From a virus, in IMG/VR virus record IMGVR_UViG_3300017971_000629, positions 1 to 30,712 of that record: a DNA stretch of 30,712 nt; one strand, written 5' to 3'. The notes under the pieces are model-generated. The model did not search any database. It saw only the letters and a program-made list of their open reading frames with translations, and was not told the origin of the DNA. Below, one piece after another: positions 92 to 29,830 of this stretch; position 1 is the first letter of the stretch, and every line of letters starts with the position of its first letter. Made by a program: the position numbers and the translations under genes.

Positions 92-514
92 ATGCGTCAC
101 ATCAGCGGCGGAAGCATTCTCGCCGAGGTTCAACTGCTAGCGAACATCATAAGTCAGGCTGAAAATCCGGTTCATAAGAATGCCGTGCAGGAGGCGAAGG
201 GGGATGTCTGGAAGTTCACTAAGGACAGGCCAGGCAAGGTGACGACCACAAGCTCGATGAATCGAAAGATGAAATACGCGTGGCAGTATTATTTGGTTAA
301 GGGAAAAAATTTTGAGGTCGATCCGGAGATGGCTGCCTCGAAGCTATACTACCGGCGTCCTGAAAAATCATGGAGCAAGACAACAGTTTACGGCGATCCT
401 TCAGAGAGGCAGATCGCTGATTATATTCATGCCGATGTCGATTCCGACCCGAACGCCTATAGCGACATGGACAACTACCGAGACGCTCATCCCGAGATCA
501 AAGAGGGGAACTAA
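92..514 (+). CDS. Unrecognised phage protein with MRHISGGSI leader
   Basis: The protein has 140 residues and no family I recognise. It opens with MRHISGGSI followed by a short amphipathic helix (residues 10-24). The same leader starts the next gene, which is the reason for choosing ATG 92 over an earlier in-frame ATG at 41; GAGGG at 79-83 is a suitable ribosome site, and 41 lies inside the palindromic repeat. The body is mixed-charge, with an acidic, Asp- and Tyr-rich C-terminus. A structural or packaged cargo role is inferred from the shared leader and from the surrounding virion genes. Confidence 0.7.
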   Translation: MRHISGGSILAEVQLLANIISQAENPVHKNAVQEAKGDVWKFTKDRPGKVTTTSSMNRKMKYAWQYYLVKGKNFEVDPEMAASKLYYRRPEKSWSKTTVYGDPSERQIADYIHADVDSDPNAYSDMDNYRDAHPEIKEGN

Positions 515-541
515 CCTATGAAAAATTACAGAGGCGGTGAA

Positions 542-1903
542 ATGCGTCACATCAGCGGCGGCAGCATTCGGTCTGAGGTCGAGCTACTGGAAGGCGTATT
601 GCAAGGCGCCGAGCCGATTACTGAGGCGAAAAACAAAAAGCCAATTTTCGGCTATTACATTAACAAGAACGAGCGCGGTGAATTCTACGCGGATGTCCGT
701 AACGAAGATGGCGAAACTGTCTACGAGATCAGAAGCGACGAAGAGACCGGGGAGGTCCCCGAGGTCGAAGACGGGCACATGAGAAATGAGCGTGACATCC
801 AGGGACTGGAATGGATGCTGAAGAAGTCGCGCGTGATCCCAAGCAACGGCGAGCTATACACTTCGCGAGATTTCGAGTCGGAACTAGATGCCGACGAAGA
901 TGAAGAGCAGGACGAGTCGATCAATCATCGCGGGCGCGTCATATCCGAAGGTGTTTACGACATCGCTGCACTGGATAGTGCGCTGTCAAAGATGCTTCCA
1001 TTGCTCAAGAAATTTGGGTTCAAGTCCAAAAGGAAAAAGGGCGCCACATACGACCTGACGATGCCGCTAGATAACGGTGACAAGTTCATCGTCAGTTTCG
1101 GCGCCCCTATGAAGAACGAAGACTATTTCACGGCATATGGCGTGGTGTCCCCATATGATCAGTCAAAAAAGATCAAAATGATGAAATCCTTGGTAGACAA
1201 GGTCCTGAAGCCGGCGGGATACACAAATATCCGGCAGCAATCAGAGAATAGTAGAGTCGAATTCGGGCCGGTTTCTATGGACGAGTCATCTCGACCCAAA
1301 ACCGGCGCAATTGTTGAGGGCGCCGCCGCCTCCAAGGAAGTGCCGAAGGCCGAGTTCGACAAGGCGTCTCGCGCAGGCAAGGAAGCTACTCGCACGATCG
1401 TCGTCCGGGATAAGTACAGCATGTATCCGATGACTATCCCTGGATTCATCGCGGGTTCCGACTTCTACTACAGGACGTCGTCGGCATTGAAGAACGAAAA
1501 GAAACTGACGACGCGATATTTTGTGGTGCCCGGGATCGACGAGGCGCGGTCGCGGAGAGCGGTGACTGAAAGCAAGGATTCGTCTGCGGCTGTCGAGAAG
1601 GCAGCGCAGGATATGGCCAAGGCTTCGATGGACGCGACCAAGGCCGAGGACCCCGACATGGGTACGGTTCTCCAGATGGTGTCTGGCGCGTTGTTGCGCC
1701 TGTCCTCGGGCGATTCGACCGGCGCAGGCGACGCCCTCGAGCAGGCGACAGCATGGATTCGCAAACTCCCAGGGTCCAGTCAGGACCAGGCACCCGTCGA
1801 CGCCGCGTCTGATGAGCCGACCGAAGAAGAGATCAAGCGTTGCTTTGGTCTCGGCGAGGACCGCGAGATAACCGCGCTGGCGCGGTCGCTCAGCGGACTT
1901 TAG
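542..1903 (+). CDS. Large unrecognised phage protein with MRHISGGSI leader
   Basis: A 453-residue protein of unknown function. The leader MRHISGGSIRSEVELLEG matches that of the gene just upstream, so ATG 542 (preceded by AGAGGCGG) is preferred to ATG 518, which would add eight residues. A mixed alpha/beta part (about 130-240) is followed by an Ala- and Lys-rich stretch. Near the C-terminus comes a helical motif, SSGDSTGAGDALEQATAWIR, resembling the end of the protein at 19405-19866. It ends with EPTEEEIKRCFG, close to a segment in the Nudix fusion at 5447-6928. The mosaic of shared pieces suggests one of a set of related virion or cargo proteins. Confidence 0.75.
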   Translation: MRHISGGSIRSEVELLEGVLQGAEPITEAKNKKPIFGYYINKNERGEFYADVRNEDGETVYEIRSDEETGEVPEVEDGHMRNERDIQGLEWMLKKSRVIPSNGELYTSRDFESELDADEDEEQDESINHRGRVISEGVYDIAALDSALSKMLPLLKKFGFKSKRKKGATYDLTMPLDNGDKFIVSFGAPMKNEDYFTAYGVVSPYDQSKKIKMMKSLVDKVLKPAGYTNIRQQSENSRVEFGPVSMDESSRPKTGAIVEGAAASKEVPKAEFDKASRAGKEATRTIVVRDKYSMYPMTIPGFIAGSDFYYRTSSALKNEKKLTTRYFVVPGIDEARSRRAVTESKDSSAAVEKAAQDMAKASMDATKAEDPDMGTVLQMVSGALLRLSSGDSTGAGDALEQATAWIRKLPGSSQDQAPVDAASDEPTEEEIKRCFGLGEDREITALARSLSGL

Positions 1904-1934: not shown

Positions 1935-2540
1935 ATGAAGAGGATCATAGCTGAAGCTCTTGGTTACGGGGTCATTGAGGCCATCGACAGGGTGGATGCC
2001 GACGCTGTGCGCGGCGCAGTCAAATTTACAGTGAAGCCAGACTCATGGGATGAGGTTCCGCTTGCTTCGATGCCGTTCAGCGTCGTGAGCATCATCAAGG
2101 GCCTGCCGGTTGTTCGCGGCAAGCCAAGTCCCATGGACAAGAATCCCGAGATGGCTAGGGCGGCAGAAAGTTCCGGATACCTTTGCATCGTGACGGTAGG
2201 TGCGGAGGCTTACCTCGTCGACACGCAGGGGTACGATTATGCGCGCTACGTCGCGAAAATCTCTCCGAAAGGGAGAGGCAAGCCCAAGAAATCGGCGCCC
2301 GCCGAAGTCGCCGACAAAAACACGATCATGAAAGCCCTCGATATCGTGATCCGCGTCCAGAAGGCCAACGAGAACGCTGGCCAGGTTGTGCGCGATGCGG
2401 TCAAAGAGATGACGGCGCTCGGTTACGACAGCTCGGCCACTGATTGGCTGTGGGACTCCAACACGTCTGACATGGGTAAGGAGTACCTTGTGAAGCTTTC
2501 GAAGCTTATCAAGAGTGGCGCCAAGTCGCGGAACAACTGA
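1935..2540 (+). CDS. Unrecognised phage protein with short helical leader
   Basis: A 201-residue protein that I do not recognise. Its start MKRIIAEALGYGVIEA is a basic, amphipathic leader with an Ile-Ala-Glu step, similar in character to the leaders of its neighbours and to the cleaved capsid-targeting leader of T4 internal proteins. GAGGGTGG stands before ATG 1935. A strand-rich region (about 28-105) is followed by a Lys/Pro linker (GKPKKSAPAE) and a helical C-terminal domain. A packaged or head-associated role is an inference from leader and context. Confidence 0.7.
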   Translation: MKRIIAEALGYGVIEAIDRVDADAVRGAVKFTVKPDSWDEVPLASMPFSVVSIIKGLPVVRGKPSPMDKNPEMARAAESSGYLCIVTVGAEAYLVDTQGYDYARYVAKISPKGRGKPKKSAPAEVADKNTIMKALDIVIRVQKANENAGQVVRDAVKEMTALGYDSSATDWLWDSNTSDMGKEYLVKLSKLIKSGAKSRNN

Positions 2541-2553
2541 GGAGATCATCTCG

Positions 2554-3162
2554 ATGCGTTTTGCAGCTGCTGCAGCCCTCGGTCTGATCGAGGGCGTTTA
2601 CGCTGACGTGAGCCCTGGCAAAGGGAGGTTCCACACCCTTGGCCAGGGCGATTTCGCTGCGCTGCGCGATCCCAAAAACCGCGACGTGACCGACGAGCTC
2701 TACGATCTCGTTGCGGCGTCTTACGCCAAGATCGGCGGTCACGCCAACGTCCGCAACGCCGACGACATCCCCGGTGATTCCGACTTCTGGAAGATCGTCG
2801 ATGTCGACGCCGATCCGGATCCCGACCTGACGATCTTCGGCAAGACGACGGCGCGCGGTCGCAAGATGACCGGCTTCGCCACGGACGGGTCGTCGACCGC
2901 GAAGGCGGCGATGTTCGACCGCGCCGTCGAGCTTCTCAACAAGGCCGGGAATTACTCCGAGGTTTCCGGCGCTCTCGCCCATGTCCTCATCACGCGCTAT
3001 TCAGTCCCATTCGTCGGCGACCACGCCGAGGTCGAGCGCGTCCTCGGCAAAAGGGTCCGCTGGATCGGCGCCGACCCGCACTACCCCGGTTACGATGGCT
3101 GGTATGAGCGCGAGATCGCCGGCTCGAAGCACGCCAAGATCCTGGTAGGTCGACCGCGCTGA
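2554..3162 (+). CDS. Conserved phage protein, possibly acetyltransferase-like
   Basis: The protein has 202 residues from ATG 2554, which has GAGGAG at 2539-2544; an upstream in-frame ATG at 2515 lies inside the previous gene. A short hydrophobic leader (MRFAAAAALGLIEG) precedes a well-formed body with segments such as WKIVDVDADPDPD, GFATDGSSTAKAAM, SGALAHVLI and GWYEREIAGSKHAKILVG. I recall similar proteins in other large myoviruses, sometimes labelled acetyltransferase-like, but I see no clear acetyl-CoA loop, so the enzymatic call is tentative. It sits between leader-bearing genes and a CHAP peptidase. Confidence 0.65.
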   Translation: MRFAAAAALGLIEGVYADVSPGKGRFHTLGQGDFAALRDPKNRDVTDELYDLVAASYAKIGGHANVRNADDIPGDSDFWKIVDVDADPDPDLTIFGKTTARGRKMTGFATDGSSTAKAAMFDRAVELLNKAGNYSEVSGALAHVLITRYSVPFVGDHAEVERVLGKRVRWIGADPHYPGYDGWYEREIAGSKHAKILVGRPR

Positions 3163-3876: not shown

Positions 3877-4389
3877 ATGTCCGAACTCATTCGACAACTC
3901 GTGAAAGCTGGCGCCTTATCCGAGAGGATTTATGGCAGGACCGAAGAGGGAGAATCCGACACGGTCGCGGCGGCCGATGCCAAGGTCGATCCCGAGGCGC
4001 CTCAAGTTATGCCTGGCTCAGACGCCGAAAAGAGGGCTCTGGCTGCAGCGACCCCGTCCGAGGCTGATGACGAAGAGGTCGGGCTTGAGCCTGGGGAGGA
4101 CCCCGTTCCTGACGTGGCACCGCAGTCGGCTGCGGGCGTCGATGTTCCGGTGAGCTTTCTACTGATGAACCTCACGGCCGCCCAAGGCATGGTGAGCGCC
4201 ATCGAGGAGATGACTTCGGAGCTATCGGCGCGGTTTGGCGATCAGGCCATCCCCGTCTTGAATGACGTCTTCTTCAAGGTCCGCTCATCATACGAGATGC
4301 TAGCGGGTCTTTTTGAGGCGAGCCAAGAGGCTGACGCTCCCGAAGCCGCGAGTGGCGACGATCCAGAATCAGAAGGTCAACCGGGCTGA
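3877..4389 (+). CDS. Acidic phage protein of unknown function
   Basis: A 170-residue, strongly acidic protein. It starts with a short helix (MSELIRQLVKAGALSERIYG). Residues 20-90 are low-complexity and rich in Asp, Glu, Ala and Pro. A helical domain around 95-150 contains SFLLMNLTAAQGMVSAIEEM, and the tail is again acidic. GGAGG precedes ATG 3877. It is the first gene after palindrome copy 2. Acidic, helical, Ala-rich proteins in head operons can be scaffold or core components, but nothing specific identifies this one. Confidence 0.7.
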   Translation: MSELIRQLVKAGALSERIYGRTEEGESDTVAAADAKVDPEAPQVMPGSDAEKRALAAATPSEADDEEVGLEPGEDPVPDVAPQSAAGVDVPVSFLLMNLTAAQGMVSAIEEMTSELSARFGDQAIPVLNDVFFKVRSSYEMLAGLFEASQEADAPEAASGDDPESEGQPG

Positions 4390-5446: not shown

Positions 5447-6928
5447 ATGCACAGGATCAAAAATCTATTCGCTGAAAGCAACTTCGGCCTATCGCTGAGC
5501 GGTCTCAAAAGCGGACGCCGTCGTCTGATCGAGGGAGATGAGCCGGAAGCCGACCGCGTTGTCTGCAAGGTCGCCATCTTTTCAAATGGCGGGCTTTGCA
5601 TGGGCAAGCGTAACGATAATGGAAAATGGACGCTTCCCGGCGGCCACGCAGACCCGGGCGAAACCCCTGTCGAAGCGGCTCTTCGAGAGGTCGAGGAGGA
5701 GACGGGGATCAAACTTGACCCAGACCAACTCTCGCCGATGGATAGCAAGCTGATCACGATGGATGATGGATCTACTCTGAAGGTCTATGGATTCCGCGTA
5801 GACCTTCCAGGCGGCGTCGACACGGAGACCAAGCATGACCCGGATGGTGAGGTGACTGACTGGGATTGGATCAACGTCCAGGCCGGTCTGCCGAGCTTCA
5901 TGGATGCCGACTCGATGCATGTCGATCCCAAGAAAGATGTCGTCATGCAGAGCCTCGGGCTTGCCCCCAAGGAGCAGGAGGAGTGCTGCTGCGACGATGC
6001 TGACGCAGAGCCGACGGACGAGGAGGTCGCGCGTCTGTTTGGGATCAGCGAGGCATCTAACCCTCCTGTTTGGGACGCCGCATGGACGAAGATCGACGGG
6101 GTCGACGTCCTTATGGTTCCAGGCAGTGACTTCGCGGCGATCCCGGCAAGCGGCAAGCGGAACGCCTCCAATTTTGTCGTGATGCAGATTTCGTCCCGAG
6201 AAGAAATCACGCAATTACGCAAGTCTGAAGTGACGCTGTGGCTCGCTGGCAAGGCGCGAGACGAGGGTGTCAAGCCGACGGGCCACTACGGCGAGGCGTT
6301 CGAAGGCGACGACGAAGTCGACCACGATGCCCCCGAGGTAGTCGACGAGGACGAATATCCTGCTGAGCCGGCCGAGAAGCCGGCGCGCTCGTCCAGCTAC
6401 AATGGCGTGGCCAAGCGCATGTTCAAGGCCATCGATGACATGCGGGCGACGGCAAATCAGAATGGTCACGACGATGTCGCGGCTACCCTCGACAATATCG
6501 AGGATGGCTACTGGGAGATTCAAAAGGCGATCATGCGAGCCTCGGCCGGTCGACGGAGCGAGAGTATCGAGGGCATGATCGATGGCATGCTTGAGGAATT
6601 GAGCAGTCTGCAAGATGCCGAGATCGACGAGGGCGCCACGACCTTCCTCGGATACAAGGACATCAAGGGCAAGCGTCCAGGCGACAAAGATTATGAGCGC
6701 ATGGACGACATCATGATGAAAGCCAACGGTTCGGACGCGAAGGCTTTACAGCTTGCGAAGATCATGGCTAACGCAATCGCCCGAGGCGGCAGTAAGGCGA
6801 GTCGCGAAAAGGCCCATCGCCGCGCCAGAGCTGCTATGGATGTGTTCCCAGGCGAGCTCGGCAAACAGATAGCCAAGATGTTCATGGACGCTGCCGAGGT
6901 CAAAACTGAGTCGGCACATCAGGGGTAA
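5447..6928 (+). CDS. Nudix hydrolase fused to a long unknown C-terminal region
   Basis: A 493-residue protein. Residues 37-165 form a Nudix domain that would hydrolyse a nucleoside diphosphate linked to another group. The complete Nudix box spans residues 66-88: Gly66, Glu72, then REVEEETGI with metal-binding Glu residues. A short leader (MHRIKNLFAES) precedes it. After the domain come a CCCDD cluster, the segment EPTDEEVARLFG (shared in form with the protein at 542-1903), an acidic linker (about 285-320) and two helical regions. Free-standing Nudix enzymes are usually 130-200 residues, so about 300 residues are extra. The substrate is unknown. The extension and the structural neighbours suggest a protein that may travel with the virion. 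Confidence 0.85.
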   Translation: MHRIKNLFAESNFGLSLSGLKSGRRRLIEGDEPEADRVVCKVAIFSNGGLCMGKRNDNGKWTLPGGHADPGETPVEAALREVEEETGIKLDPDQLSPMDSKLITMDDGSTLKVYGFRVDLPGGVDTETKHDPDGEVTDWDWINVQAGLPSFMDADSMHVDPKKDVVMQSLGLAPKEQEECCCDDADAEPTDEEVARLFGISEASNPPVWDAAWTKIDGVDVLMVPGSDFAAIPASGKRNASNFVVMQISSREEITQLRKSEVTLWLAGKARDEGVKPTGHYGEAFEGDDEVDHDAPEVVDEDEYPAEPAEKPARSSSYNGVAKRMFKAIDDMRATANQNGHDDVAATLDNIEDGYWEIQKAIMRASAGRRSESIEGMIDGMLEELSSLQDAEIDEGATTFLGYKDIKGKRPGDKDYERMDDIMMKANGSDAKALQLAKIMANAIARGGSKASREKAHRRARAAMDVFPGELGKQIAKMFMDAAEVKTESAHQG

Positions 6929-6933
6929 TTCGG

Positions 6934-7449
6934 ATGCCAAGAAAGATAAGGCGAGCGACCAGCGCCGCTCTCGGTAGAATCGGCGGTCCGAAAAAGTCTT
7001 CGGCTGCCGTCAGAGCTGCGTCCAAGGATTTATCCTACACGGTGATTCGGCACGAGGTCATCACACGCGCGCAGCAGGCCCAGGTTGGAATCAAGATATG
7101 GATAGATGAGCCGTCATGGCAGCGGTACGCCGACGCCTATAGAGCGCGGAACGCCAGCAAGAGCGACCAATCGGAGTTGGAGCAATCGGTCGGTGACATT
7201 CGCAGGATGATCGAAGAGCGCATCGGGAATCTCGATGACCGGAGCTTTACCATCGATCGCCATGGTCAAATCATGCTGCGGAATGACACGGGCGAGTTTG
7301 GAGCCGCGACGAAGGAGGGGGTCGTTAAGTGGAAGGCGACCGACCATCGAGGGAACATCCTCAAGTATGTCGATGACGCGCAGACATATGAGGTTGTTGG
7401 CGAAACCGGCGTTGAAGAGTCGTCTTACGAATGGAAGGGTCGCCGCTGA
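6934..7449 (+). CDS. Phage protein of unknown function
   Basis: A 171-residue protein with a very basic N-terminus (MPRKIRRATSAALGRIGGPKK), suited to binding nucleic acid or to serving as a leader. A mixed alpha/beta body follows, with DRSFTIDRHGQIML and a C-terminal strand-rich part. I do not recognise a family. Its stop overlaps the next start as TGATG, so the two genes are probably translated together. Confidence 0.6.
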   Translation: MPRKIRRATSAALGRIGGPKKSSAAVRAASKDLSYTVIRHEVITRAQQAQVGIKIWIDEPSWQRYADAYRARNASKSDQSELEQSVGDIRRMIEERIGNLDDRSFTIDRHGQIMLRNDTGEFGAATKEGVVKWKATDHRGNILKYVDDAQTYEVVGETGVEESSYEWKGRR

Positions 7450-8312
7450 TGCCAGCCAATCTCGTGAAAACAGCTGCTGATGAAAAGGCATGGGGCCGAG
7501 CCAAGGCCGCTGCCGCCAAGTCGCTCAAGAAGGACGTCGACGCCCTCAAGGACGACGACTATGCCCTGGTCAACCATATCTTTCAGAACATGAAGGAGTC
7601 GGCTGGCCCGCCCATGGACTTCGAGCCGGTCGACGCGGCCCTTGGCAAAAAGAAGAAGTGCCCCTGCGGCCAGGTCGACGCTGACGGCCGATGCGCCTGT
7701 GATGACGGCGCGTGGGCCTTCGCCCCCCTCTACGGCGACGGGAAGGGCCATAGCGGCGCCACGTTGCCCAAGGATAACGTCGCCCAGGGGGCCGCCGGGC
7801 AAAGCCCATCCCCGAGTTCGCCGGCCTACCCCGGCCCAGGCGGCATTAACGCGCCGGGTGTCCCGGCCGGCCCGAACCCCGGCACTGGGCCAATCGTGGC
7901 ATGGAAGGAGTTTTCTATGCGTGGTCTGATGGAGGCCCTCGACTTCGCAATCGGCGCGTCATCGAGCCCCACAGTTATTGACGTCTCGACTGAGGTCCCC
8001 GGCATCGTGGCTGACGACGCCGAAGCGCCGCCCCCGGCGCCAGCGCCGGCCCGCCCTGCTATTCTCGAGCAGCCGGCGAGCCCGACCGTTTTCTCGGTCC
8101 TGATCGCGGCGGTCCATCGTGCCTTCACCCAGGCTGGCGACGTGCTGTTCGCCAACGGCTATATGTCGCAGTCGGAGCGGATCGAGCTATCGGGCGCGAT
8201 CGGCGACGCTCTACGGGTTCTCGACCAGTCGATGATGGATCGCGCGCCAAGCGCCTGCTCGACGCCGGTTGACATGACCGTCGTGCCCTTGTGCTTGGAG
8301 GACCGCGCTTGA
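7449..8312 (+). CDS. Two-part phage protein with Cys cluster and internal start
   Basis: A 287-residue protein from ATG 7449, which overlaps the previous stop. The N-terminal part has VKTAADEKAWGRAKAAAAK followed by DDYALVNHIFQNM, a motif I know from other phage proteins. Four cysteines (71, 73, 82, 84; CPCG and CACD) could bind a metal. A Pro/Gly-rich linker (105-150) leads to a second start-like sequence, MRGLMEALDFAIGA. This is encoded by an in-frame ATG at 7917 with AAGGAG six bases before it. The remaining C-terminal part is Ala/Pro-rich and then helical. The internal start may yield a shorter product. Confidence 0.65.
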   Translation: MPANLVKTAADEKAWGRAKAAAAKSLKKDVDALKDDDYALVNHIFQNMKESAGPPMDFEPVDAALGKKKKCPCGQVDADGRCACDDGAWAFAPLYGDGKGHSGATLPKDNVAQGAAGQSPSPSSPAYPGPGGINAPGVPAGPNPGTGPIVAWKEFSMRGLMEALDFAIGASSSPTVIDVSTEVPGIVADDAEAPPPAPAPARPAILEQPASPTVFSVLIAAVHRAFTQAGDVLFANGYMSQSERIELSGAIGDALRVLDQSMMDRAPSACSTPVDMTVVPLCLEDRA

Positions 8313-8539
8313 ACTTTTCGGTCTGCATCAGCTGCGGCCGTGCTGCCGCCTGCCAACGTCCCGGCTGTCCTATCAAGCGGTCGACACAGCTGGTCGGCCT
8401 TCATCGGGCCATGACGAGTCACCTTCCGGCCGACGCCCTCATGATCCTTCCCGTCGGCGGCACTGATCCTTGGGTTGGCATCGACGACCGCGACTGGCGC
8501 GACTCGCTCGAGGAGCCCCTCGATCTGAGGCCGATCTAA
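8309..8539 (+). CDS. Small Cys-containing phage protein
   Basis: A 76-residue protein starting at TTG 8309, overlapping the previous stop as TTGA, with GGAGG about eight bases before. The N-terminus has four cysteines in CISCGRAAACQRPGC, which could form a small zinc site. The rest contains a hydrophobic segment (LPADALMILPVGG) and an acidic end. The next gene starts directly after its stop. Function unknown; the call as a gene rests on coupling, start signal and open frame. Confidence 0.5.
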   Translation: MNFSVCISCGRAAACQRPGCPIKRSTQLVGLHRAMTSHLPADALMILPVGGTDPWVGIDDRDWRDSLEEPLDLRPI

Positions 8540-9100
8540 ATGGCGAACAAGAAATCCGGGAATTACATCCTGCGCATGCAGCAGTTGCAGCAGCGGCGGC
8601 GCGGCCAGGCAAAAGGAGACCGCTTCGCCGCCGACGCGGCAGCTCGTCAGCGGAAGATCGAGGGTCGTGTCGGCAAAAAGCTGATTGTCCCCGAATCGGT
8701 CATGCTCGAGATGATCCGGACAAATAAAGTGCCGACCATGATCAAGCATTGTGTCCTGGCCGTGATGTTCAAAAAGAGGCGGAAGCTGCGAGGGACGCCA
8801 AAGGAGCAATTCCTGTCTGCCTTCAATATCTGCTGCGCGACCTTCGCCAAGCACGGTTACCTGAGCGGCCGTGGCTCCATCAACATGACCGGCCGTGGCA
8901 TGAGACGAAATCGCTGCCATCAGCGCGAGAAAGTCGCGAACAAGAAGAAGGGTCGGTACAATGGCGTAGTCAACAAGCTCTGGACACCGCAACTTGACCA
9001 GGCCCGATTCGCGGCAAGAGAATCTAAACGCGTCGCGCGCAACGCTCGTGATCGCATGGCACGCATGAAGCAGAGGCGTAAAGCCAAAGGGAGGACGTGA
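8540..9100 (+). CDS. Highly basic phage protein, probable nucleic-acid binding
   Basis: A 186-residue protein that is unusually rich in Arg and Lys throughout. There are clusters near the start (QQRRRGQAK), in the middle (FKKRRKLRG; GRGMRRNRCHQREK) and over the last 40 residues (KRVARNARDRMARMKQRRK). A short central helical part (about 50-115) contains hydrophobic residues. The charge suggests binding to DNA or RNA, perhaps condensing DNA in the head, but no known fold is evident. It overlaps the next gene as TGATG. Confidence 0.6.
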   Translation: MANKKSGNYILRMQQLQQRRRGQAKGDRFAADAAARQRKIEGRVGKKLIVPESVMLEMIRTNKVPTMIKHCVLAVMFKKRRKLRGTPKEQFLSAFNICCATFAKHGYLSGRGSINMTGRGMRRNRCHQREKVANKKKGRYNGVVNKLWTPQLDQARFAARESKRVARNARDRMARMKQRRKAKGRT

Positions 9101-10208: not shown

Positions 10209-10268
10209 ATGGCTTCTCAGTATTTGAAGCGCATGGGTACGAACGAGATCGTTAATCCGGAGTCGTGA
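10209..10268 (+). pseudogene. Possible remnant of a displaced gene end
   Basis: A short frame of 19 codons, MASQYLKRMGTNEIVNPES, ends in TGA at 10266-10268 and overlaps the next ATG as TGATG. The DNA is GC-balanced, unlike the AT-rich sequence on both sides. It could be the former C-terminus of the gene at 9100, left behind when an AT-rich segment replaced it. It is too short to argue for a functional product. Confidence 0.35.
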
Positions 10269-10336
10269 TGAAAACCGCCGGCCAATCACTGCTAAAGGAC
10301 GTCGCCGCTGTCGCAGCGATGCTTAGCGAGTGGACC
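10268..10336 (+). repeat. Direct repeat of leader-coding DNA, copy A
   Basis: This 69-bp stretch starts at an ATG and matches 10643-10711 at 66 of 69 positions, exactly 375 bp apart. The differences lie at repeat positions 27, 28 and 48. It encodes the leader MKTAGQSLL...AMLSEWT. Downstream of it the two genes diverge completely. Confidence 0.9.
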
Positions 10337-10558
10337 ACGGACGAGGAGTTGAGTGAAGTGAAGGCAGGAAAAAATCTTGATTGGGAAAGTGTAGAAAAGG
10401 CTTTAGAAGCCGAAGATTTTGAAACTAAAAGTGTCCCACTGGCGATACTTAGAGTTGTGGGCTTCACGTTCGGCGATTTTGAAAAAGCCATGAGGAATAT
10501 TGTCAAAAATAAAGACGAGATTCCTTTTATTGACAATGTTCTAGCAAGGCTGCGGTGA
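10268..10558 (+). CDS. Small acidic protein: duplicated leader on an AT-rich body
   Basis: A 96-residue protein. Residues 1-23 (MKTAGQSLL...AMLSEW) are nearly identical to the start of the protein at 10643-11311. The following body is encoded by AT-rich DNA (about 10345-10556), is acidic and helical, and includes LDWESVEKALEAEDFETK and FTFGDFEKAMRNI. ATG 10268 is coupled to a short frame upstream, with GGAG before it. The structure looks like a foreign small gene fused behind a resident leader. As a small acidic protein right after a gene with a foreign C-terminus it resembles an immunity partner in layout, but no sequence evidence shows that. Confidence 0.6.
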   Translation: MKTAGQSLLKDVAAVAAMLSEWTTDEELSEVKAGKNLDWESVEKALEAEDFETKSVPLAILRVVGFTFGDFEKAMRNIVKNKDEIPFIDNVLARLR

Positions 10559-10565
10559 GCAGCGC

Positions 10566-10643
10566 ATGTGGGTTGATTTTGGCGATGGTGACCACTCGGT
10601 GCACATAAGCAGTCCAGATCAAAGATATGGGATGGATTTTTGA
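10566..10643 (+). pseudogene. Short coupled frame, possible gene remnant
   Basis: A frame of 25 codons, from MWVDFGDGDHS to GMDF, ends with TGA at 10641-10643 and overlaps the next ATG as TGATG. This is the same arrangement as at 10209-10268 in front of the first leader copy. It may be a remnant C-terminus or a tiny coupling peptide. No ribosome site of note precedes it. Confidence 0.3.
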
Positions 10644-10711
10644 TGAAAACCGCCGGCCAATCACTGCTGGAGGACGTCGCCGCTGTCGCGGCGATGCTTA
10701 GCGAGTGGACC
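10643..10711 (+). repeat. Direct repeat of leader-coding DNA, copy B
   Basis: Partner of 10268-10336 (66 of 69 bases identical). This copy encodes the leader of the longer GC-rich gene and is probably the older one, because the base composition stays the same beyond the repeat. Confidence 0.9.
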
Positions 10712-11311
10712 TCAGCCGAGGAGAGCTGGATCGAGGCGACAGCCAAAAAGTACGGCGTGCGATTTGAAAGTCAGCTCTACGGCGTCACGGACGCGCAGTT
10801 TGAGAAGTTTCTAAAATCGTTCCTGTCCAAAATCCATCCCGATGAAGTCGAGATCCAGCGCGCCGCGATGGAGATGGCTCGCGAGATGCTACGGGAAGGG
10901 GTCGAGGAGGCGATCGACCTCTCGCGGATATGGAAGGGCATCAAAGACGCCGCCGCGCGCACGGCCAAATCGTCAAAGGATTCGTTTGTGCGTGGATATC
11001 GGCGCGGTGCCGGATTAGACGACAAACCAGATCCCAAGGCGGCTGCCAAACCAGAGCCCAAGGCGAAAAATCCGACCGCTAAGTCCGCTTCCGAAAAAAA
11101 ATCGGAACCGCCCGAGGCGTCGACCACGAAGCCGCCGCGCGCTGCTAAGCCCGATGACAAGGACGCGGCACCTCCCAAGCCGGCAGCTAAAGAACGGCAG
11201 CAGGCGCGCTGTAAACCCCTTAAAGGCCGCCCGGGAAGCATGAAGTGCGTCTCCGCATCGGGGAATGTTTACTACAAAGATTCAAGCGGCCAGTCCAGGA
11301 GAGTCAAATGA
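10643..11311 (+). CDS. Leader-bearing protein with Lys/Pro/Ala-rich tail
   Basis: A 222-residue protein. The MKTAGQSLL leader (1-23) is followed by a helical domain (25-115) with AMEMAREMLREGVEEAI and then SSKDSFVRGYRRGAG. A long disordered region (about 125-190) is rich in Lys, Ala and Pro, like histone tails, and a short strand-rich end reads MKCVSASGNVYYKDSSG. The basic tail suggests contact with DNA. The start has only a weak ribosome site (GGGATGG), so translation may depend on coupling to the frame upstream. The duplicated leader suggests a targeting tag. Function otherwise unknown. Confidence 0.7.
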   Translation: MKTAGQSLLEDVAAVAAMLSEWTSAEESWIEATAKKYGVRFESQLYGVTDAQFEKFLKSFLSKIHPDEVEIQRAAMEMAREMLREGVEEAIDLSRIWKGIKDAAARTAKSSKDSFVRGYRRGAGLDDKPDPKAAAKPEPKAKNPTAKSASEKKSEPPEASTTKPPRAAKPDDKDAAPPKPAAKERQQARCKPLKGRPGSMKCVSASGNVYYKDSSGQSRRVK

Positions 11312-11619
11312 TCACGCGCTTTCAGATCCGCGAAGAGGTCGAGCTGCTTGAGCGCGCAATCGATGGCCTCGAAGAGACATTTTTGTCGTCTAGCGACCCA
11401 TCGATAGCTGTGCTCGCCTTCGTCGAAAAGCTGTCCTCTCAGCTCGGGGCGATCAAACACGCTTACGCCCACACGGCCAAGGATCGCAACGCTCTGCCGG
11501 ATCAGGTCATGCCATACATCCGAGCAATCCGTGACGCCTGCGCGGCTCTCGAGGCATCCCTTTCCGGACCTCCAGAGGACACCAACCGGAGTCTGGAGGA
11601 CGATCGGTGGGACGGCTGA
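11308..11619 (+). CDS. Small helical phage protein
   Basis: A 103-residue protein starting at ATG 11308, which overlaps the previous stop as ATGA and has AGGAGAG before it; an earlier in-frame ATG at 11245 lies inside the upstream gene. It is almost wholly helical. Its beginning, MITRFQIREEVELLERAIDG, resembles SIRSEVELLEGVLQG in the leader of the protein at 542, so it may belong to the same leader class. The acidic C-terminus ends with NRSLEDDRW. Function unknown. Confidence 0.6.
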   Translation: MITRFQIREEVELLERAIDGLEETFLSSSDPSIAVLAFVEKLSSQLGAIKHAYAHTAKDRNALPDQVMPYIRAIRDACAALEASLSGPPEDTNRSLEDDRWDG

Positions 11620-12928: not shown

Positions 12929-13128
12929 ATCACAATCCCTCACAGATCATTGACGCCATCCGCGTCGCGGCAGACTTGCCCGGCGCGGAATCGCTCAGGC
13001 CGGCCCTCCTCGACGGCGTTCGGCTGATCGCGGGGGCCGTCGCGGCGGCGGCTGACCTGCGTCGCCGCGCTGACGCGGTTCAGACGCAGCGTTCGAGTCT
13101 AGTGGAGGCTGGCGCAACGGATGCCTGA
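12925..13128 (+). CDS. Small Ala-rich helical protein
   Basis: A 67-residue protein from GTG 12925, overlapping the previous stop by four bases, and overlapping the next frame by eight. It is predicted to be two helices rich in Ala, Arg and Leu (LIAGAVAAAADLRRRADAV), perhaps a short coiled coil. The overlaps on both sides support it as a real gene directly ahead of the tubulin-like gene. Function unknown. Confidence 0.55.
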   Translation: MNHNPSQIIDAIRVAADLPGAESLRPALLDGVRLIAGAVAAAADLRRRADAVQTQRSSLVEAGATDA

Positions 13129-14401
13129 GGCGCGCTACAGGTACGGCGGTCCTATAGACGGTCGCACCGTGGTTCGCATCAAGTCGTATGCTGTTGACCG
13201 TATTAGGCGCCGCACGATCCTGCTAGCATCGGGCGAGTGCTGGACAGAAGAATACGGGCCGGATGGTTGGCCGACCTTGATAACTAATGGGCGAACGCGC
13301 GTTCGCATTCAGACCGAAGGAGACCTGGCTATGGATATGGACTTCCCACAACTCGACGACCTTTCGACCGAGGAGCAAAGTACCGGCGCGATCGCCGATG
13401 AGGCGCCGAAGGCCGAGAAGGTCTGCTTTGTGGGGGTTGGCCAGGCTGGATGCAAGATCGCAGATACGTTTTGGGGAAAGGGATACCGGAGAGTCCTGCT
13501 TATCAACACGACCGAGCAAGACATGGCCGGCCTGACCTGTCCGAATCGCGTGATCATGAAGGGCGCCGGCCAGGGAGCCGGCAAGCAGCGATCGGTCGGC
13601 CGCGCCGCCGCCGAGGCAGCTCGAGAGGAAATCTTGCGCGCCATGACCCGCGCCTTTGGGACGGACTTCGAACGCATCGTCGTCTGCACATCGGGCGGAG
13701 GCGGCACCGGATCGGGGGCTAGTCCGGTCATCATTGAGATTGCGCGTCAGTTCTGCGTGGAGATGGAGAAGCCTCGCAAGGTCGGCGCCATAGTCGGCGG
13801 CCCGCGCAAGTCAGAAGGGGCAGCCGTGTCGGCTAACCATTCGGCGTTGCTGGCTGAGCTGCACGCCATGACCCCGACGCCCATGATCCTCATGGACAAC
13901 GAGCGTATCGCCAAGCTCTATCCGACGGCGTCCGTCGCGCAGTTCATGTCGATCGCCAATCAGAATCTTTGTGGCCTTTACGACGTCTTCAATGGCCTCG
14001 CCGCTCAGCCGTCCCCATATTCGACCCTAGACCCCGCCGATTACCGATCGGTGCTTGATGCGGGGGTTTTGGTCTTCGGCATGACGACGGTCAAGGACGC
14101 AGCCGACCCGACTTCGATCGCGGCGGCGGTCGAAAAGAACATGGCCGGAGGACTGCTGTCTGACTCGGCAAAAATCCAGCATGCCTCGCATGCGGCCGGC
14201 GTCATCGTTGCTTCCAAGGCGCGGCTTGAAACCCTTGCTCAAACCACTCTGGATCGCGGATTCGAGGCCCTGAATCGACTGATCGGAACTCCGGGCCTGG
14301 TCATACACACCGGGATCTACCAAGGTCCAGATAGTTTAGGTGACAGGGTCTTGGTCTATTGCATCGCGTCGGGACTGAAATGGATGCCGGAGAGCCGATA
14401 A
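13121..14401 (+). CDS. FtsZ/tubulin-like GTPase
   Basis: A 426-residue frame encoding a tubulin-superfamily GTPase that would polymerise with GTP. Visible motifs are VGVGQAGCKIAD (104-115, first nucleotide loop), LLINTTEQDMAGL (126-138), GAGQGAGKQRSVGRAAAEA (148-166), the signature SGGGGTGSGASP (191-202), and a T7-like loop TLDPADYRSVLDAG (302-315). The two Asp residues of that loop (304, 307) align with the catalytic acids of FtsZ. The last part matches the tubulin C-terminal domain. An internal ATG at 13331 (residue 71), with GAAGGAG eight bases before it, gives a 356-residue product close to usual FtsZ size. The fifteen bases of palindrome copy 3 lie between the two starts. The gene sits among neck genes, unlike PhuZ or TubZ loci I know. 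Role in DNA positioning or assembly is inferred. Confidence 0.9.
   Translation: MPEARYRYGGPIDGRTVVRIKSYAVDRIRRRTILLASGECWTEEYGPDGWPTLITNGRTRVRIQTEGDLAMDMDFPQLDDLSTEEQSTGAIADEAPKAEKVCFVGVGQAGCKIADTFWGKGYRRVLLINTTEQDMAGLTCPNRVIMKGAGQGAGKQRSVGRAAAEAAREEILRAMTRAFGTDFERIVVCTSGGGGTGSGASPVIIEIARQFCVEMEKPRKVGAIVGGPRKSEGAAVSANHSALLAELHAMTPTPMILMDNERIAKLYPTASVAQFMSIANQNLCGLYDVFNGLAAQPSPYSTLDPADYRSVLDAGVLVFGMTTVKDAADPTSIAAAVEKNMAGGLLSDSAKIQHASHAAGVIVASKARLETLAQTTLDRGFEALNRLIGTPGLVIHTGIYQGPDSLGDRVLVYCIASGLKWMPESR
13293..13307 (+). repeat. Dispersed palindromic element, copy 3
   Basis: An exact GAACGCGCGTTCGCA. It is flanked on the left by GGC, giving the longer perfect palindrome CGAACGCGCGTTCG at 13292-13305. 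It lies inside the long open frame of the tubulin-like gene, 38 bases before the internal ATG 13331 and its ribosome site. The other copies lie outside recognised coding sequence, so this one suggests that expression of the GTPase may start here. Confidence 0.8.
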
Positions 14402-18515: not shown

Positions 18516-19022
18516 ATGGCACGCGCGTCAAACACGGACTACTTTCACAATTTCAAGTTCCACATGCGTGTGGTCAGTTCGACCACCGTCGGCGGGGCTA
18601 CCGTCGGAGCTCAGGGCGGATTCACGAATATCGCCATGCCTGAGATCACCGTCGAGACGGCGGAGTATCAAGAGGGGACGATGCTTTACCGCCGGAAATA
18701 TCCGGGCCAGGTGAGTTTCAGCGACGTTTCGGTGTCGCGCGGCGTCGTCAAAGGAAACACCGAGCTGTATGACTGGATTCGCGCGTCATACCTTGGCTCG
18801 GAATATCGAGCGGATGTGGAGATTCGCCACATGCATCGCGACGAGGTCACAAGCCTCACCGACTTCACAGCGGTGGCAGCCAAGCGTAAAGTAAAGCTTT
18901 ACGAGGGCATGGCAACGCGGGTTAAGCTCGGGGGCGACCTCGACGCACAAAGCTCCGACGTCTCGGTCGAGGAATTCGACATCGTGTACGAGAGCGCCGA
19001 GCTCGAAAACCCGGCCGCCTAA
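18516..19022 (+). CDS. Tail tube protein (gp19-like), first copy
   Basis: A 168-residue protein that follows the sheath gene, as tail tube genes do. It has the gp19-like order: FHNFKFHMRVV, then GGFTNIAMPEITVETAEYQE, RRKYPGQVSFSDVSVSRG, and LYDWIRASYLG, ending with VEEFDIVYESAELENPAA. The tube forms the inner channel for DNA. A second protein of the same type is encoded at 20444-20998. GGAGGG stands before ATG 18516. Confidence 0.8.
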   Translation: MARASNTDYFHNFKFHMRVVSSTTVGGATVGAQGGFTNIAMPEITVETAEYQEGTMLYRRKYPGQVSFSDVSVSRGVVKGNTELYDWIRASYLGSEYRADVEIRHMHRDEVTSLTDFTAVAAKRKVKLYEGMATRVKLGGDLDAQSSDVSVEEFDIVYESAELENPAA

Positions 19023-20443: not shown

Positions 20444-20998
20444 TTGGCGAGAGATAGGCTCAGCGACTTCCTTCAGGTCGGCAATTTCCACCTCATTGAC
20501 GTCTCGTTCACTATCCCCATGGTCATGCTGCCCATCTTCGGATTCGCGCGCTGCACGGCGCCCGAGGTCTCGATGGATATGTATCGGATCAAGGAGGGAA
20601 ACTACGAGTGGTCGCGCAAGGTGATCAAGGGAGCCGACGCTCAGCCGATAACGCTCGAGCAAGGGGTCCAGATCTTCAATTCCGATTTCGGCGACTGGGT
20701 TCGAAAGGCGATCACGGGGCGGGTTGATCCTAAAAACCTCATGATCGTTCACTTTTCTCGCATGGGATTTGGAAACGGCGGGACGGTTGGGGCCGCCGAT
20801 ACCGGGAACGACTTTGTCGGCGAGGCGTTTAGCTTCGAGTTCGTCCGCCGGATTCCTGGTCGGGCATGGATCCTCTACAATTGCCGCCCTTCCAATTGGA
20901 AGGTAGCCTCTGACTTCGATGCCATGAGTCAGGACATCTCTATGCAGTCCATTTCGCTCGAGTACGAGGAGCTGGACGAAATCTCGCTCGGCGTCTAG
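20444..20998 (+). CDS. Tail tube-like protein (gp19-like), second copy
   Basis: A 184-residue protein from TTG 20444, with GAGGTGA before it. Its pattern, DFLQVGNFHLIDVSFTIP, GFARCTAPEVSMDMYRIKEG, SRKVIKGADAQPITLEQG, FGDWVRKAITG, and a closing ISMQSISLEYEELDE, fits the tube family that includes T4 gp19. It is only distantly similar to the protein at 18516. It may form the tube end or a tail-tip ring rather than the main tube, as paralogous tube proteins do in some contractile systems. Confidence 0.7.
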   Translation: MARDRLSDFLQVGNFHLIDVSFTIPMVMLPIFGFARCTAPEVSMDMYRIKEGNYEWSRKVIKGADAQPITLEQGVQIFNSDFGDWVRKAITGRVDPKNLMIVHFSRMGFGNGGTVGAADTGNDFVGEAFSFEFVRRIPGRAWILYNCRPSNWKVASDFDAMSQDISMQSISLEYEELDEISLGV

Positions 20999-26077: not shown

Positions 26078-27523
26078 ATGGCTGAATCGACGCTGGCTGG
26101 GGGCACATACGAGGTCGTCGCTTACAAGGGCGGCCAAGAGTGGAATCGCACCAACTTTCCAGCTTTCTTTAACTCCATATCATCTGTCCGCGCGGATGTC
26201 GGTGGAGGAGGGGCCTCCTCCATCACGATCACTCTGACCCCTAGTTTGATCGACGCTATCCTGATCCTGCAGTCCGGAATCCTAGGGGCCTCGACAGCGG
26301 ACCCGAGTTTGCTTCCGAGCAGCGGGGGTGGTGGATCACAGCAGCCATCGATCAGTAATGTCGGCGGCAATGCGTCCGCGACATCCGCCGACGCTCCCGC
26401 CAGCGCCCCTTCAAACGGTACCTATTATGCCGTTCGATTTCTGTATCCGGGCGTTCCCGAGGGGGACACGCCTTGGTATGGAGGGCACACGTGCCAGCCT
26501 AGTTTCGACATAAGCGGCGGACTAATCGACATCACCGTGAAGGTGACGGGCGTTCAGAACATGATGTCGATCATGGGAGGCCCGGTCGTTATCAATAACG
26601 AATCGGCGCTCTCAGTCCTGAAGCGATTCGCTTCGAAGTTCAACGTGGAAATTACATTCGACGATGAGGACACGGAGACCGAGGCTCTCCTTTCCGACAC
26701 AAAAATCAGCGGCGCTTTCAACGAAGATTACGACGACATCATCCGTCGCGTTCTCACAGACCTATTCTGCTCCTACGTCAAATACGACGGCGATGAGGCT
26801 GACCCGAAACCTCAGTATCGAATCAAATCTCTGAAATATCTCTCGAAGCAGCCGATCGAATATCACATTTGTGTTTTGAGACAGATCGATCCGTCTAACG
26901 GACAGATCCCTGCAGAGTTGTCTCTTGAGTCAGCTGGCGCGCTATTCGCCCCCGGCAATGCATTTGGAACATTTCAGCGCGAGCTTATTACCGGCGAAAA
27001 AAGGTTCGATCCATACGCTGGCAGTCCGCAAGATTACAAAGGTCAGTCTGATTCGGCTTCCAAGGCGGACTCTGGTTCGGTGCCTATGGATACAGGCGAT
27101 GGATTGGCGAAAGGCGGCGCTACTGGCCTTGTCGACACTGGAGGCGATCTCGTCGCCGGCCATGTGGCGGCCGGCATCAAAAGAGGTGACCTAGAAAATC
27201 AGGACCGTCTTACGGCTGTTTCTGAGGCGTCCCGCACTGGCGCCTTGGTTTTTTCGGCGACATGCCCAGGAATCCCTCGAGTTCGTCCCCTCTCCTACGT
27301 CCAACTTACGGTTGGCCCAGGGGACGGGGGGATCGAAGCCTTCTCGGGTCCATGCCGAGTCACCGAGATCGCTCACGAATGCAACGATAGCGGTTGGACG
27401 ACAACGCTCAAACTCTTCAAAACAGGCGGTCCAACTTACAACGCGTCCGCGACACCGAAGAAGGGCGAGGCGCCGAAAGCGCCAAACAAAGGCGCAATCA
27501 AGCAAGCTACGGATATTCCATGA
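26078..27523 (+). CDS. Baseplate hub protein (gp27/gpD-like)
   Basis: A 481-residue protein between the gp53-like protein and the spike, where the hub gene belongs. It starts with a Gly/Ser-rich region (to about 120), including SSGGGGSQQPSISNVGGN. A folded part follows, containing ITVKVTGVQNMMSIMGGPVV, LKRFASKFNVEITFDDED and DYDDIIRRVLTDLFCSYVKY, the type of duplicated hub domain found in gp27 and in phage late-control D proteins. The end is Lys/Ala/Pro-rich. The hub would form the ring holding the spike. Its stop overlaps the spike start as ATGA. Confidence 0.65.
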   Translation: MAESTLAGGTYEVVAYKGGQEWNRTNFPAFFNSISSVRADVGGGGASSITITLTPSLIDAILILQSGILGASTADPSLLPSSGGGGSQQPSISNVGGNASATSADAPASAPSNGTYYAVRFLYPGVPEGDTPWYGGHTCQPSFDISGGLIDITVKVTGVQNMMSIMGGPVVINNESALSVLKRFASKFNVEITFDDEDTETEALLSDTKISGAFNEDYDDIIRRVLTDLFCSYVKYDGDEADPKPQYRIKSLKYLSKQPIEYHICVLRQIDPSNGQIPAELSLESAGALFAPGNAFGTFQRELITGEKRFDPYAGSPQDYKGQSDSASKADSGSVPMDTGDGLAKGGATGLVDTGGDLVAGHVAAGIKRGDLENQDRLTAVSEASRTGALVFSATCPGIPRVRPLSYVQLTVGPGDGGIEAFSGPCRVTEIAHECNDSGWTTTLKLFKTGGPTYNASATPKKGEAPKAPNKGAIKQATDIP

Positions 27524-28524
27524 GCCTCATCGCGAACCTCATCCGCAACGTGACCGACTTCGGGATTGAGCGCGTCTTCAAGCGCTACTATTCGCTCTAT
27601 CGCGGCGAGGTCACTGACAACGTCGATCCCGAGCATCGCGGGCGGGTCAAGCTGCGTTTGCCCACCATCTTCGGCCAGGACGAGCTCCCGACGTTTGCCG
27701 AGCCGCGAGACTTCCGGGGGGCTGGCGCGGGGAAGGGCGAATTCTGGCCCCCGGAGGTAGGAGACTGGGTCTACGTCGAGTTTGAGCAAGGAGACCCGCG
27801 TTATCCGATTTACTCAGGCGGCTGGCATGCCCAGGAAGAGGTCGACACGTCGGACTTCGAGCATGATGCTGACGCCCCGAAGTCACGTGGTTGGAAGACC
27901 AAATACGGCCACGTGATGAAGTTTGTCGACCAGGCTGGCAAAGAGCGTGTCTATGTCTCGACGCCCAAGGGTCACTTTCTGATCCTCGATGACAGCGAGG
28001 GATCCGAGTCGATCTTTCTGATCCATAAATCTGGCGCACAGATGCAGATCGACCAGACCGGATCGGCAAAAATTGTGGCGTTAGACGGCGGCTATGTGTC
28101 ACTCGACGCGGAGACGCACGAGGTATCGGCGGCGTCTAAGGACGGCTCCCTGATCAAGCTGGGGGAAGACATCCTTCTTTTGCCGAAAGGCGGCGACACG
28201 CTCCTGCATTTAAAGGAGGGGCTCGCGCAGTTTACGTCCGCCAAGGACATGACTATCGCGGCGAATGCCCTGACAGTGTCGGCGGGATCGGTCACGATCG
28301 ACGCGCAGGGAGCGAAGCTAAATCTCGGGGCCGGCAAAATCGCCATCGGAGCCGGGGCGACGGAGGTGGTAGATTCCATCATTCAGATCATCGACTCGCT
28401 AACCCAGAGCCCATCTCTGACGACGACCGGAACCGGACCGTCAGGTCCGCTTTCGCCGCCGGCATCGGTTCAACTGGGAGTGCTCAAAGCCCTGCTGTTG
28501 GCCATCAAGGGAAGTCTCGCTTAA
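27520..28524 (+). CDS. Baseplate central spike protein (gp5/VgrG-like)
   Basis: A 334-residue protein from ATG 27520, which overlaps the hub stop; a longer frame reaching upstream is discounted. Residues 25-110 have an OB-fold pattern: YSLYRGEVTDNVDPEHRGRV, LRLPTIFG, then WPPEVGDWVYVEFEQGDPRY and PIYSGGWH, as in gp5 and VgrG N-terminal domains. The rest has strand-rich repeats with many Gly, Asp and Ala (TIAANALTVSAGSVTIDAQG), suggesting a trimeric beta-helix needle. No lysozyme domain is seen, unlike T4 gp5. Confidence 0.85.
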   Translation: MSLIANLIRNVTDFGIERVFKRYYSLYRGEVTDNVDPEHRGRVKLRLPTIFGQDELPTFAEPRDFRGAGAGKGEFWPPEVGDWVYVEFEQGDPRYPIYSGGWHAQEEVDTSDFEHDADAPKSRGWKTKYGHVMKFVDQAGKERVYVSTPKGHFLILDDSEGSESIFLIHKSGAQMQIDQTGSAKIVALDGGYVSLDAETHEVSAASKDGSLIKLGEDILLLPKGGDTLLHLKEGLAQFTSAKDMTIAANALTVSAGSVTIDAQGAKLNLGAGKIAIGAGATEVVDSIIQIIDSLTQSPSLTTTGTGPSGPLSPPASVQLGVLKALLLAIKGSLA

Positions 28525-28766
28525 TGGGTAAGCTCATCGATTTGACGGCCAGGTTCATCGGAGAAAGGAGCCCGCTTGATTTATCAGCTGGGGTCGTCGA
28601 TGCCGGCCTTATTTTGGCGGTCGACGAGATGGAGCAGCTAGTTCACGCCTCGGCGCGCGAGATCGCGATAGAGCTCGTCCGACGGACCCGGGTGATGGTT
28701 TGTGTTGATGAGCACGAGGACGAGTACGGCCGGGGTTTTTACTCGATCTATACTTCGGAGGTCTGA
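28524..28766 (+). CDS. Small phage baseplate-region protein
   Basis: An 80-residue protein from ATG 28524, overlapping the spike stop as TAATG. A helical centre (AVDEMEQLVHASAREIAIEL) is followed by RTRVMVCVDEHEDEYGRGFY. No family is recognised. Its fixed place between the spike and the next baseplate-region genes suggests a structural or chaperone role. Confidence 0.55.
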   Translation: MGKLIDLTARFIGERSPLDLSAGVVDAGLILAVDEMEQLVHASAREIAIELVRRTRVMVCVDEHEDEYGRGFYSIYTSEV

Positions 28767-28768
28767 CA

Positions 28769-29344
28769 TTGCCGGTCAAGCCGCAGGCTGAATGGGCAAG
28801 CACCTACGCCGAGGATCTTGAGCAATACTACTCGGACTACCAAGCCGCGCTCGAGCTTGGGGCGCCCGGCCCCCCGATCGTGGAATTCTGGGCTGGATGG
28901 GTCGCCAAGAATGCTGATGGCATCGAGACGACCGCTCCATATCCGGGGTCGATCGCCGTGGTCGACCAGTCCTCCTTCGCGCCGGTCGATTTTACGGGCG
29001 TGGCGAGCGCTGTGCAGGCGGCCCAAGTTTTGGCCGACGCCTGGCAAGCGTTCATGAACGGCTTAACCTGGCCTCCTATGACGCCGGCCCCTCCATTCAC
29101 GGCCATAACCTCCGTCACCACGAGCGCGCTCGGGTTGACCGCCGCCTATGCTACGCTACTAGCGGGCTTGACCGCCGTGTTTTCGACTCTCCCGGCAAGC
29201 CCCGAGACGGCGATGCAAGAGAAGTCAGAGGCTATTGCCTCTCTTTTCTACACCGCGACCATCTCGGTTGGGGTCCAGATCGACGGCCTGGGGACCGGAG
29301 CTCCGCCGCCGGCTGTGTCGATACCGCAATCGCCCGCGCTTTGA
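28769..29344 (+). CDS. Putative baseplate-region structural protein
   Basis: A 191-residue protein from TTG 28769, with GGAGG close before it. An N-terminal helix (WASTYAEDLEQYYSDYQAAL) is followed by many Ala, Pro and Thr residues with hydrophobic stretches (TTSALGLTAAYATLLAGLTA). The last 20 residues are Pro-rich (GTGAPPPAVSIPQSPAL), echoing the Pro-rich next gene. No family is recognised; structural by context. Confidence 0.55.
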   Translation: MPVKPQAEWASTYAEDLEQYYSDYQAALELGAPGPPIVEFWAGWVAKNADGIETTAPYPGSIAVVDQSSFAPVDFTGVASAVQAAQVLADAWQAFMNGLTWPPMTPAPPFTAITSVTTSALGLTAAYATLLAGLTAVFSTLPASPETAMQEKSEAIASLFYTATISVGVQIDGLGTGAPPPAVSIPQSPAL

Positions 29345-29353
29345 GGGAGCGAC

Positions 29354-29830
29354 ATGGCCGGTTTGTATGTGAAAATCTCGGGATTCCTTAAAGGGTCAGA
29401 GCGCACTTCGCTGAAGCTCTTCATTCCTCTGCCGGTCTTGCCGATCCCGATCCCTTCATTGCCGGTTTTGAAATTGCCGGAGCTCCCTTCGATCCCATCG
29501 TTACCGAAGATCGGCATCCCCGCACCACTCGCTATCCCGGTCCCGGCATTGCCGGCGCTGGCCATTCCTGCGCTGCCGATTCCGACGCCATCGCTGCCGG
29601 TCATCAAACTTCCCGAGCTTCCGTCGATTCCATCGCTGCCCAAGATTTCCATTCCGGAACCACTATCAATCCCGATTCCATCGCTGCCGACGCTCGCGAT
29701 CCCATCCCTGCCGATCCCGATTCCGTCGATCCCGATCCCAACGATCCCGTCGCTACCGTCTCTCCCCAAGATTCCGATCCCACTCTTTCCGGCTCCCTTC
29801 TCGACTGTGGTGAGCACAGGCCAGGAATGA
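29354..29830 (+). CDS. Proline-rich 45-residue repeat protein
   Basis: A 158-residue protein made almost only of Pro, Leu, Ile, Ser and Ala from residue 24 on. Two 45-residue units (34-78 and 79-123) align without gaps, each with PSLPV.KLPELPSIPSLPKI, then IP.PL.IP and a third part; a shorter piece follows. Pro falls about every second or third position, so a helix is excluded and an extended polyproline or narrow beta-type fibre is likely. The N-terminal 23 residues (MAGLYVKISGFLKGSERTSL) are normal. The position between baseplate genes suggests a tail-tip, spike or fibre component. GGGAG precedes ATG 29354. I do not know its family. Confidence 0.75.
   Translation: MAGLYVKISGFLKGSERTSLKLFIPLPVLPIPIPSLPVLKLPELPSIPSLPKIGIPAPLAIPVPALPALAIPALPIPTPSLPVIKLPELPSIPSLPKISIPEPLSIPIPSLPTLAIPSLPIPIPSIPIPTIPSLPSLPKIPIPLFPAPFSTVVSTGQE
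29453..29722 (+). repeat. Two tandem 135-bp coding repeats
   Basis: Units 29453-29587 and 29588-29722 encode the two aligned 45-residue Pro-rich blocks. The third positions differ more than the protein does, so the duplication is not recent or is under selection to keep the pattern. Confidence 0.8.

Follow-up and report, generated by a model that had tools for sequence, protein, structure and literature searches.

Internal proteins of the T4 phage include counter-defence and host-takeover proteins. The adjacent T4 genes ipII and ipIII have 32 bases in common from the ATG and encode unlike bodies behind the same leader, MKTYQEFIAEA, which directs the proteins to the core and is then removed (PMC9026906, PMC9958956). 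The T4 gp21 protease cleaves after L/I-X-E (PMC9026906), while the prohead protease acting on SPN3US gp53 and gp54 and on the inner-body propeptides of the phiKZ phage cuts after Glu (PMC5694885). In the P1 phage, the first 30 residues of DarB are enough to send a reporter into the capsid (PMC9024508).

The stretch of DNA analysed here (the window; 30,712 nt, IMG/VR record IMGVR_UViG_3300017971_000629; negative coordinates lie upstream of it) carries two forward-strand genes, at 92..514 (140 a.a) and 542..1903 (453 a.a, or 461 a.a from an alternative ATG at 518, 8 residues earlier), that share a leader, termed leader A. The original prediction had noted MRHISGGSI on these two unlike proteins, a nearly identical 20-base stretch after each ATG, and a following helix with conserved Glu and Leu spacing, and all three observations hold. 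The 20-base sequence ATGCGTCACATCAGCGGCGG occurs exactly at 92 and at 542 with no third site in the window, and was matched in none of 100 shuffles even with three mismatches allowed (chance expectation of 0). Counted from the first base of the ATG, 27 of 28 bases are the same between the two copies (nt. 92..119 and 542..569, both +), with no match upstream of the ATG. At the protein level, MRHISGGSI is followed by the conserved residues E12, V13, L15, and L16 (56% identity over ~38 residues), and the local score was 75 for the 30-residue leaders vs. 36 past residue 35. The leader spans approximately residues 1–24 (up to 34) in the first protein. The sharing of a leader by genes 92 and 542 on unlike bodies is real, and chance is excluded.

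Neither protein matched the PHROG, Pfam, or PADLOC profiles, and homologue searches found nothing in IMG/VR beyond the contig of this phage itself and nothing credible among phage records; likewise, a strict search for the leader A pattern, a check attached to the original prediction, confined it to this phage among the IMG/VR contigs. The body of protein 542 was absent from six records (four relatives and two near-identical contigs, all of which are fragments). AlphaFold models built without an alignment had a mean pLDDT of 39 and 47, with no match at E <= 0.001 in a fold search, and the predicted fold of protein 542 was uninformative. As a separate observation, the C-terminus of protein 542 (nt. 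1814-1852) and a Nudix protein (nt. 6008-6046) have an internal tag in common, EPT[ED]EE[IV].R.FG[LI] (score of 56, next best 36), which was not seen in the relatives searched.

The prohead protease that the original prediction proposed to look for was found on an overlapping contig (IMGVR_UViG_3300017963_000286, 63,440 bp), in which all 9,451 of the 9,451 overlapping bases are the same as those in the window. There, 3–7 kb upstream of the window, lie genes for a fusion of a prohead protease and a scaffold-like part (-6611..-4386; PF03420, 2e-15; PHROG head maturation protease, 5.5e-41) and a gp23-type major capsid protein (-4327..-2909; Gp23 PF07068, 7e-71), with an acidic prohead core protein further upstream (-8076..-6628). 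The protease keeps the catalytic His and Ser of T4 gp21, with GECDHP and GVSSRG aligning with GELNHP and GVSSRG in T4, and has a relative of known structure in the 5jbl chain (6e-8); judged by its sequence, it belongs to the gp21 (Peptidase S77) prohead proteases. Compared with other N-termini, the core protein gave one suggestive match, in the relative G002 (score of 37), and weak ones elsewhere. Elsewhere in the window, a tubulin/FtsZ-family gene lies among the head and neck genes (nt. 13121-14401; Pfam Tubulin, 7e-18; PHROG PhuZ, 1.7e-7), two tail-tube-like proteins are encoded at nt. 18516-19022 and 20444-20998 (PHROG 4542; 1.9e-14 and 1.7e-6), and an ORF of proline-rich LP/IP repeats (nt. 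29354-29830, +) is overlapped by a long minus-strand ORF (nt. 29248-29817). On L003, the gene directly after that for the capsid protein (nt. 7052-8884) encodes homing-endonuclease-like and DNA-methyltransferase-like parts in one protein.

Several proteins of the head point to a protease cutting after L/I/M-x-E. All capsid proteins of the lineage contain [LM][NT]E↓ET(R/K) (arrows marking known cuts in T4 and candidate cuts elsewhere) in the region corresponding to LTE↓A of T4 gp23, and L-x-E precedes D or S at residues 16–20 in four of four distinct full-length protease N-termini, the start of one relative having probably been miscalled. In three phages, the scaffold linked to the protease has more L/I/M-x-E than expected (13 observed vs. 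5.6 expected, p 0.003; 12 vs. 6.0, p 0.006; and 16 vs. 8.9, p 0.006), the same signature as in T4 gp22 (17 vs. 6.8), with no enrichment of L/I/M-x-D or L/I/M-x-x-E in these scaffolds. The spacerless L/I/M-E is also enriched in the G002 scaffold (15 vs. 6.0), so the spacing specificity is clean in the other two phages only. No enrichment of L/I/M-x-E was found in the core protein itself.

Both leader A proteins have candidate sites of this kind, at positions that differ between them. While E12 is common to both, the Leu at P3 is present in protein 92 only (LAE12↓V), and the candidate sites of protein 542 are further on (LLE17↓G and ITE28↓A). Across two phages, L/I-x-E falls within residues 6–40 in 19 of 19 leader proteins vs. 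116 of 312 others (~37%), a count which overstates the contrast because members of a leader family are not independent; per family, it is five of five. In G004 (contig L012), neighbouring proteins with LFE↓A near residues 20–25 are encoded at 26318-28972 (oriented coordinates), the one at 27857 being J-domain-like by eye.

To survey leaders across this phage, genes were called on the window and overlapping contig joined, and every 30-residue N-terminus was compared pairwise; gene starts came from a simple script without curated annotation, and all contigs are metagenomic fragments. Four leader-only pairs scored at least 45, and no others: 10268/10643 (116), 92/542 (75), 542/11308 (46), and -23552/2554 (46). 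When the N-termini of these proteins were shuffled, no pair reached this score, and internal segments, used as a comparison, gave two pairs that did. Applied to T4, the same test returned ipII/ipIII (60, body 22) as the top pair without body similarity; the pairs that scored higher were those of homing endonucleases and that of alt and its annotated duplicate.

Leader B is carried by a 96 a.a protein (MKTAGQSLLKDVAAVAAMLSEW; nt. 10268..10558, +), with a candidate site at LSE21↓W, and by a 222 a.a protein with an unlike body (nt. 10643..11311, +); the DNA identity between the two stops shortly after the LSE21 codons, and the leader B pattern was found in one contig across IMG/VR, a second contig of this phage. 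A 103 a.a protein (MITRFQIREEVELLERAIDGL; nt. 11308..11619, +; candidate site LLE15↓R) has the helix REEVELLE in common with protein 542. Leader C joins a 202 a.a protein (MRFAAAAALGLIE↓G; nt. 2554..3162, +) with a 129 a.a protein at -23552 on the overlapping contig, 26 kb upstream. Leader sharing recurs in this phage in several types, A, B, and C.

The original prediction had named 1935, 2554, 3877, and 11308 as further small genes with short amphipathic leaders, of which 11308 (with 542) and 2554 (with -23552) found a partner, but 1935 and 3877 showed no significant leader likeness to other genes of this phage. The latter two are kept as candidates only: the protein of 1935 (nt. 1935..2540, +) begins MKRIIAE↓ALGYGVIE, in which IAE↓A is the T4 IPII/IPIII site, and that of 3877 (MSELIRQLVKAGALSE↓R; nt. 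3877..4389, +) has N-termini similar by eye in apparent syntenic orthologues from four relatives. Their T4-like Ile/Leu-x-Glu steps are present as described, yet such a step is also found near the N-terminus in 40 of 108 other proteins that this phage encodes. Amphipathicity is only weakly above shuffles for leaders A, B, and 11308 (p 0.015-0.09) but not for 2554 (p 0.42). A third candidate only is the Nudix protein (nt. 5447..6928, +), whose leader ends in RRRLIE↓GDE and resembles RRKLIE↓SDE in the core protein (-8076); the motif common to both N-termini, RR[RK]LIE[GS]DE, may represent a further leader type.

Leader families were also found in G002 (IMGVR_UViG_3300018080_000002, 157 kb), whose capsid protein is 58% identical. 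Eight unlike proteins encoded at 117382-122148 have the leader M(N/D)LKKLN..LEESI.IL, and four at 100142-104161 have the leader MR.(E/Q)Y(L/I).EM. In the eight-member family, codon comparison gave 150 synonymous and 178 nonsynonymous changes in the leader vs. 20 and 463 in the bodies (control), a pattern indicating that these leaders are old and conserved at the protein level. Across IMG/VR, the G002 leader pattern was found in one contig, G002 itself, and Pfam searches of the bodies returned a winged helix (1.3e-5), a sub-threshold lipocalin-like match, and little else.

Leader sharing could in principle be no more than what local duplication, or gene conversion between neighbouring genes, has left behind, without a targeting role. 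In favour of this, genes 92 and 542 lie side by side and differ at one of their first 28 bases, and 10268 and 10643 are a similar case; against it, the identity begins exactly at the ATG, there are several independent leader families, the leader C partners are far apart, and the G002 leaders have kept their residues through many synonymous changes. We consider this origin improbable. We instead find it probable, reading from the sequences, that the leaders are capsid-targeting propeptides, T4-like in action but with their own lineage-specific sequences, cut by the gp21-type protease.

Under the capsid-targeting reading, MRHISGGSI and the following helix would bind the scaffold inside the prohead as it grows, thereby enclosing the unlike bodies behind the leader; the gp21-type protease would then cut after L/I-x-E near the leader end, and the cut bodies would remain in the head alongside the DNA. 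For the leader proteins, we infer targeting, cleavage, and a location in the head from this comparison; passage of the bodies from the head into the next host cell, and the roles they may play, are speculative. The original prediction of targeted proteins with T4-like protease sites is thus strengthened by the protease and capsid genes, the motif conservation and scaffold enrichment, and the ipII/ipIII precedent, but not every gene it listed belongs.

The leader may alternatively be an uncleaved docking helix for one partner (scaffold, neck, or tail) that stays on the mature protein, with L/I-x-E as a by-product of Leu/Glu-rich amphipathic helices. The leaders are indeed mildly amphipathic, L/I-x-E is frequent near N-termini generally, conservation in G002 continues to approximately residue 18, beyond the first L-x-E↓S, and the G002 swarm adjoins tail-tube genes, making a tail role possible. 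The scaffold, protease, and capsid N-termini nevertheless all indicate an L/I/M-x-E protease, the DNA identity of leader B stops soon after LSE, and the T4 precedent is cleaved, leaving a docking helix conceivable but unlikely. Signals for another destination (a phage nucleus-like structure, a tubulin spindle, or the membrane) appear very improbable: the tubulin/FtsZ-family gene of the window, and the four-member family that flanks the tubulin-like gene in G002, would suit them, but leaders A and B are without a visible hydrophobic signal peptide, the lipoprotein signals of G003 look quite different, and the head machinery of T4 is the better fit.

Should the capsid-targeting reading be true, a shared leader would identify head-carried proteins from sequence alone, many of them without a known family, and would be usable for uncultured phages, where proteomics is impossible. 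Given that some T4 internal proteins act in counter-defence or host takeover, the list of leader proteins would then be one of candidate injected effectors, and lineage-specific leaders would provide new packing tags to load proteins into other phage heads. A rather doubtful extension, taken as a whole, is that leaders are modular labels, whereby each phage of this lineage evolves its own N-terminal leader brands, several per genome, which are swapped at the start codon onto at least a dozen changing cargos, perhaps for sorting by place or time within the prohead and for host delivery.

Among known systems, DarB of the P1 phage resembles the leader proteins in having an N-terminal packaging signal, but the signal is known from one protein, rather than from a tested leader family, and belongs to another capsid lineage. 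SPN3US gp53 and gp54 are likewise diverged proteins with the same N-terminal 15 residues; however, their two bodies are still 34% identical, and SPN3US and phiKZ propeptides are mostly >100 residues and follow A-X-E or S/A/G-X-E rules. The likeness to T4 IPII/IPIII extends to adjacent genes, a leader that is the same in protein and in DNA from the ATG, unlike bodies, and a gp21-type protease and gp23-type capsid protein in the same phage. Differing from T4, the likely leader here is 12–28 residues long, there are several leader types per phage, and MKTYQEFIAE is unrelated to the leaders here (by inspection against T4 IPI-III). The leaders would work like the capsid targeting sequence (CTS) of T4, with no homology to it claimed; in this T4-like phage, the shared tag is most likely a packing label of the kind already known on T4 internal proteins, and what differs here is the tag sequence and the larger number of proteins that carry such tags.
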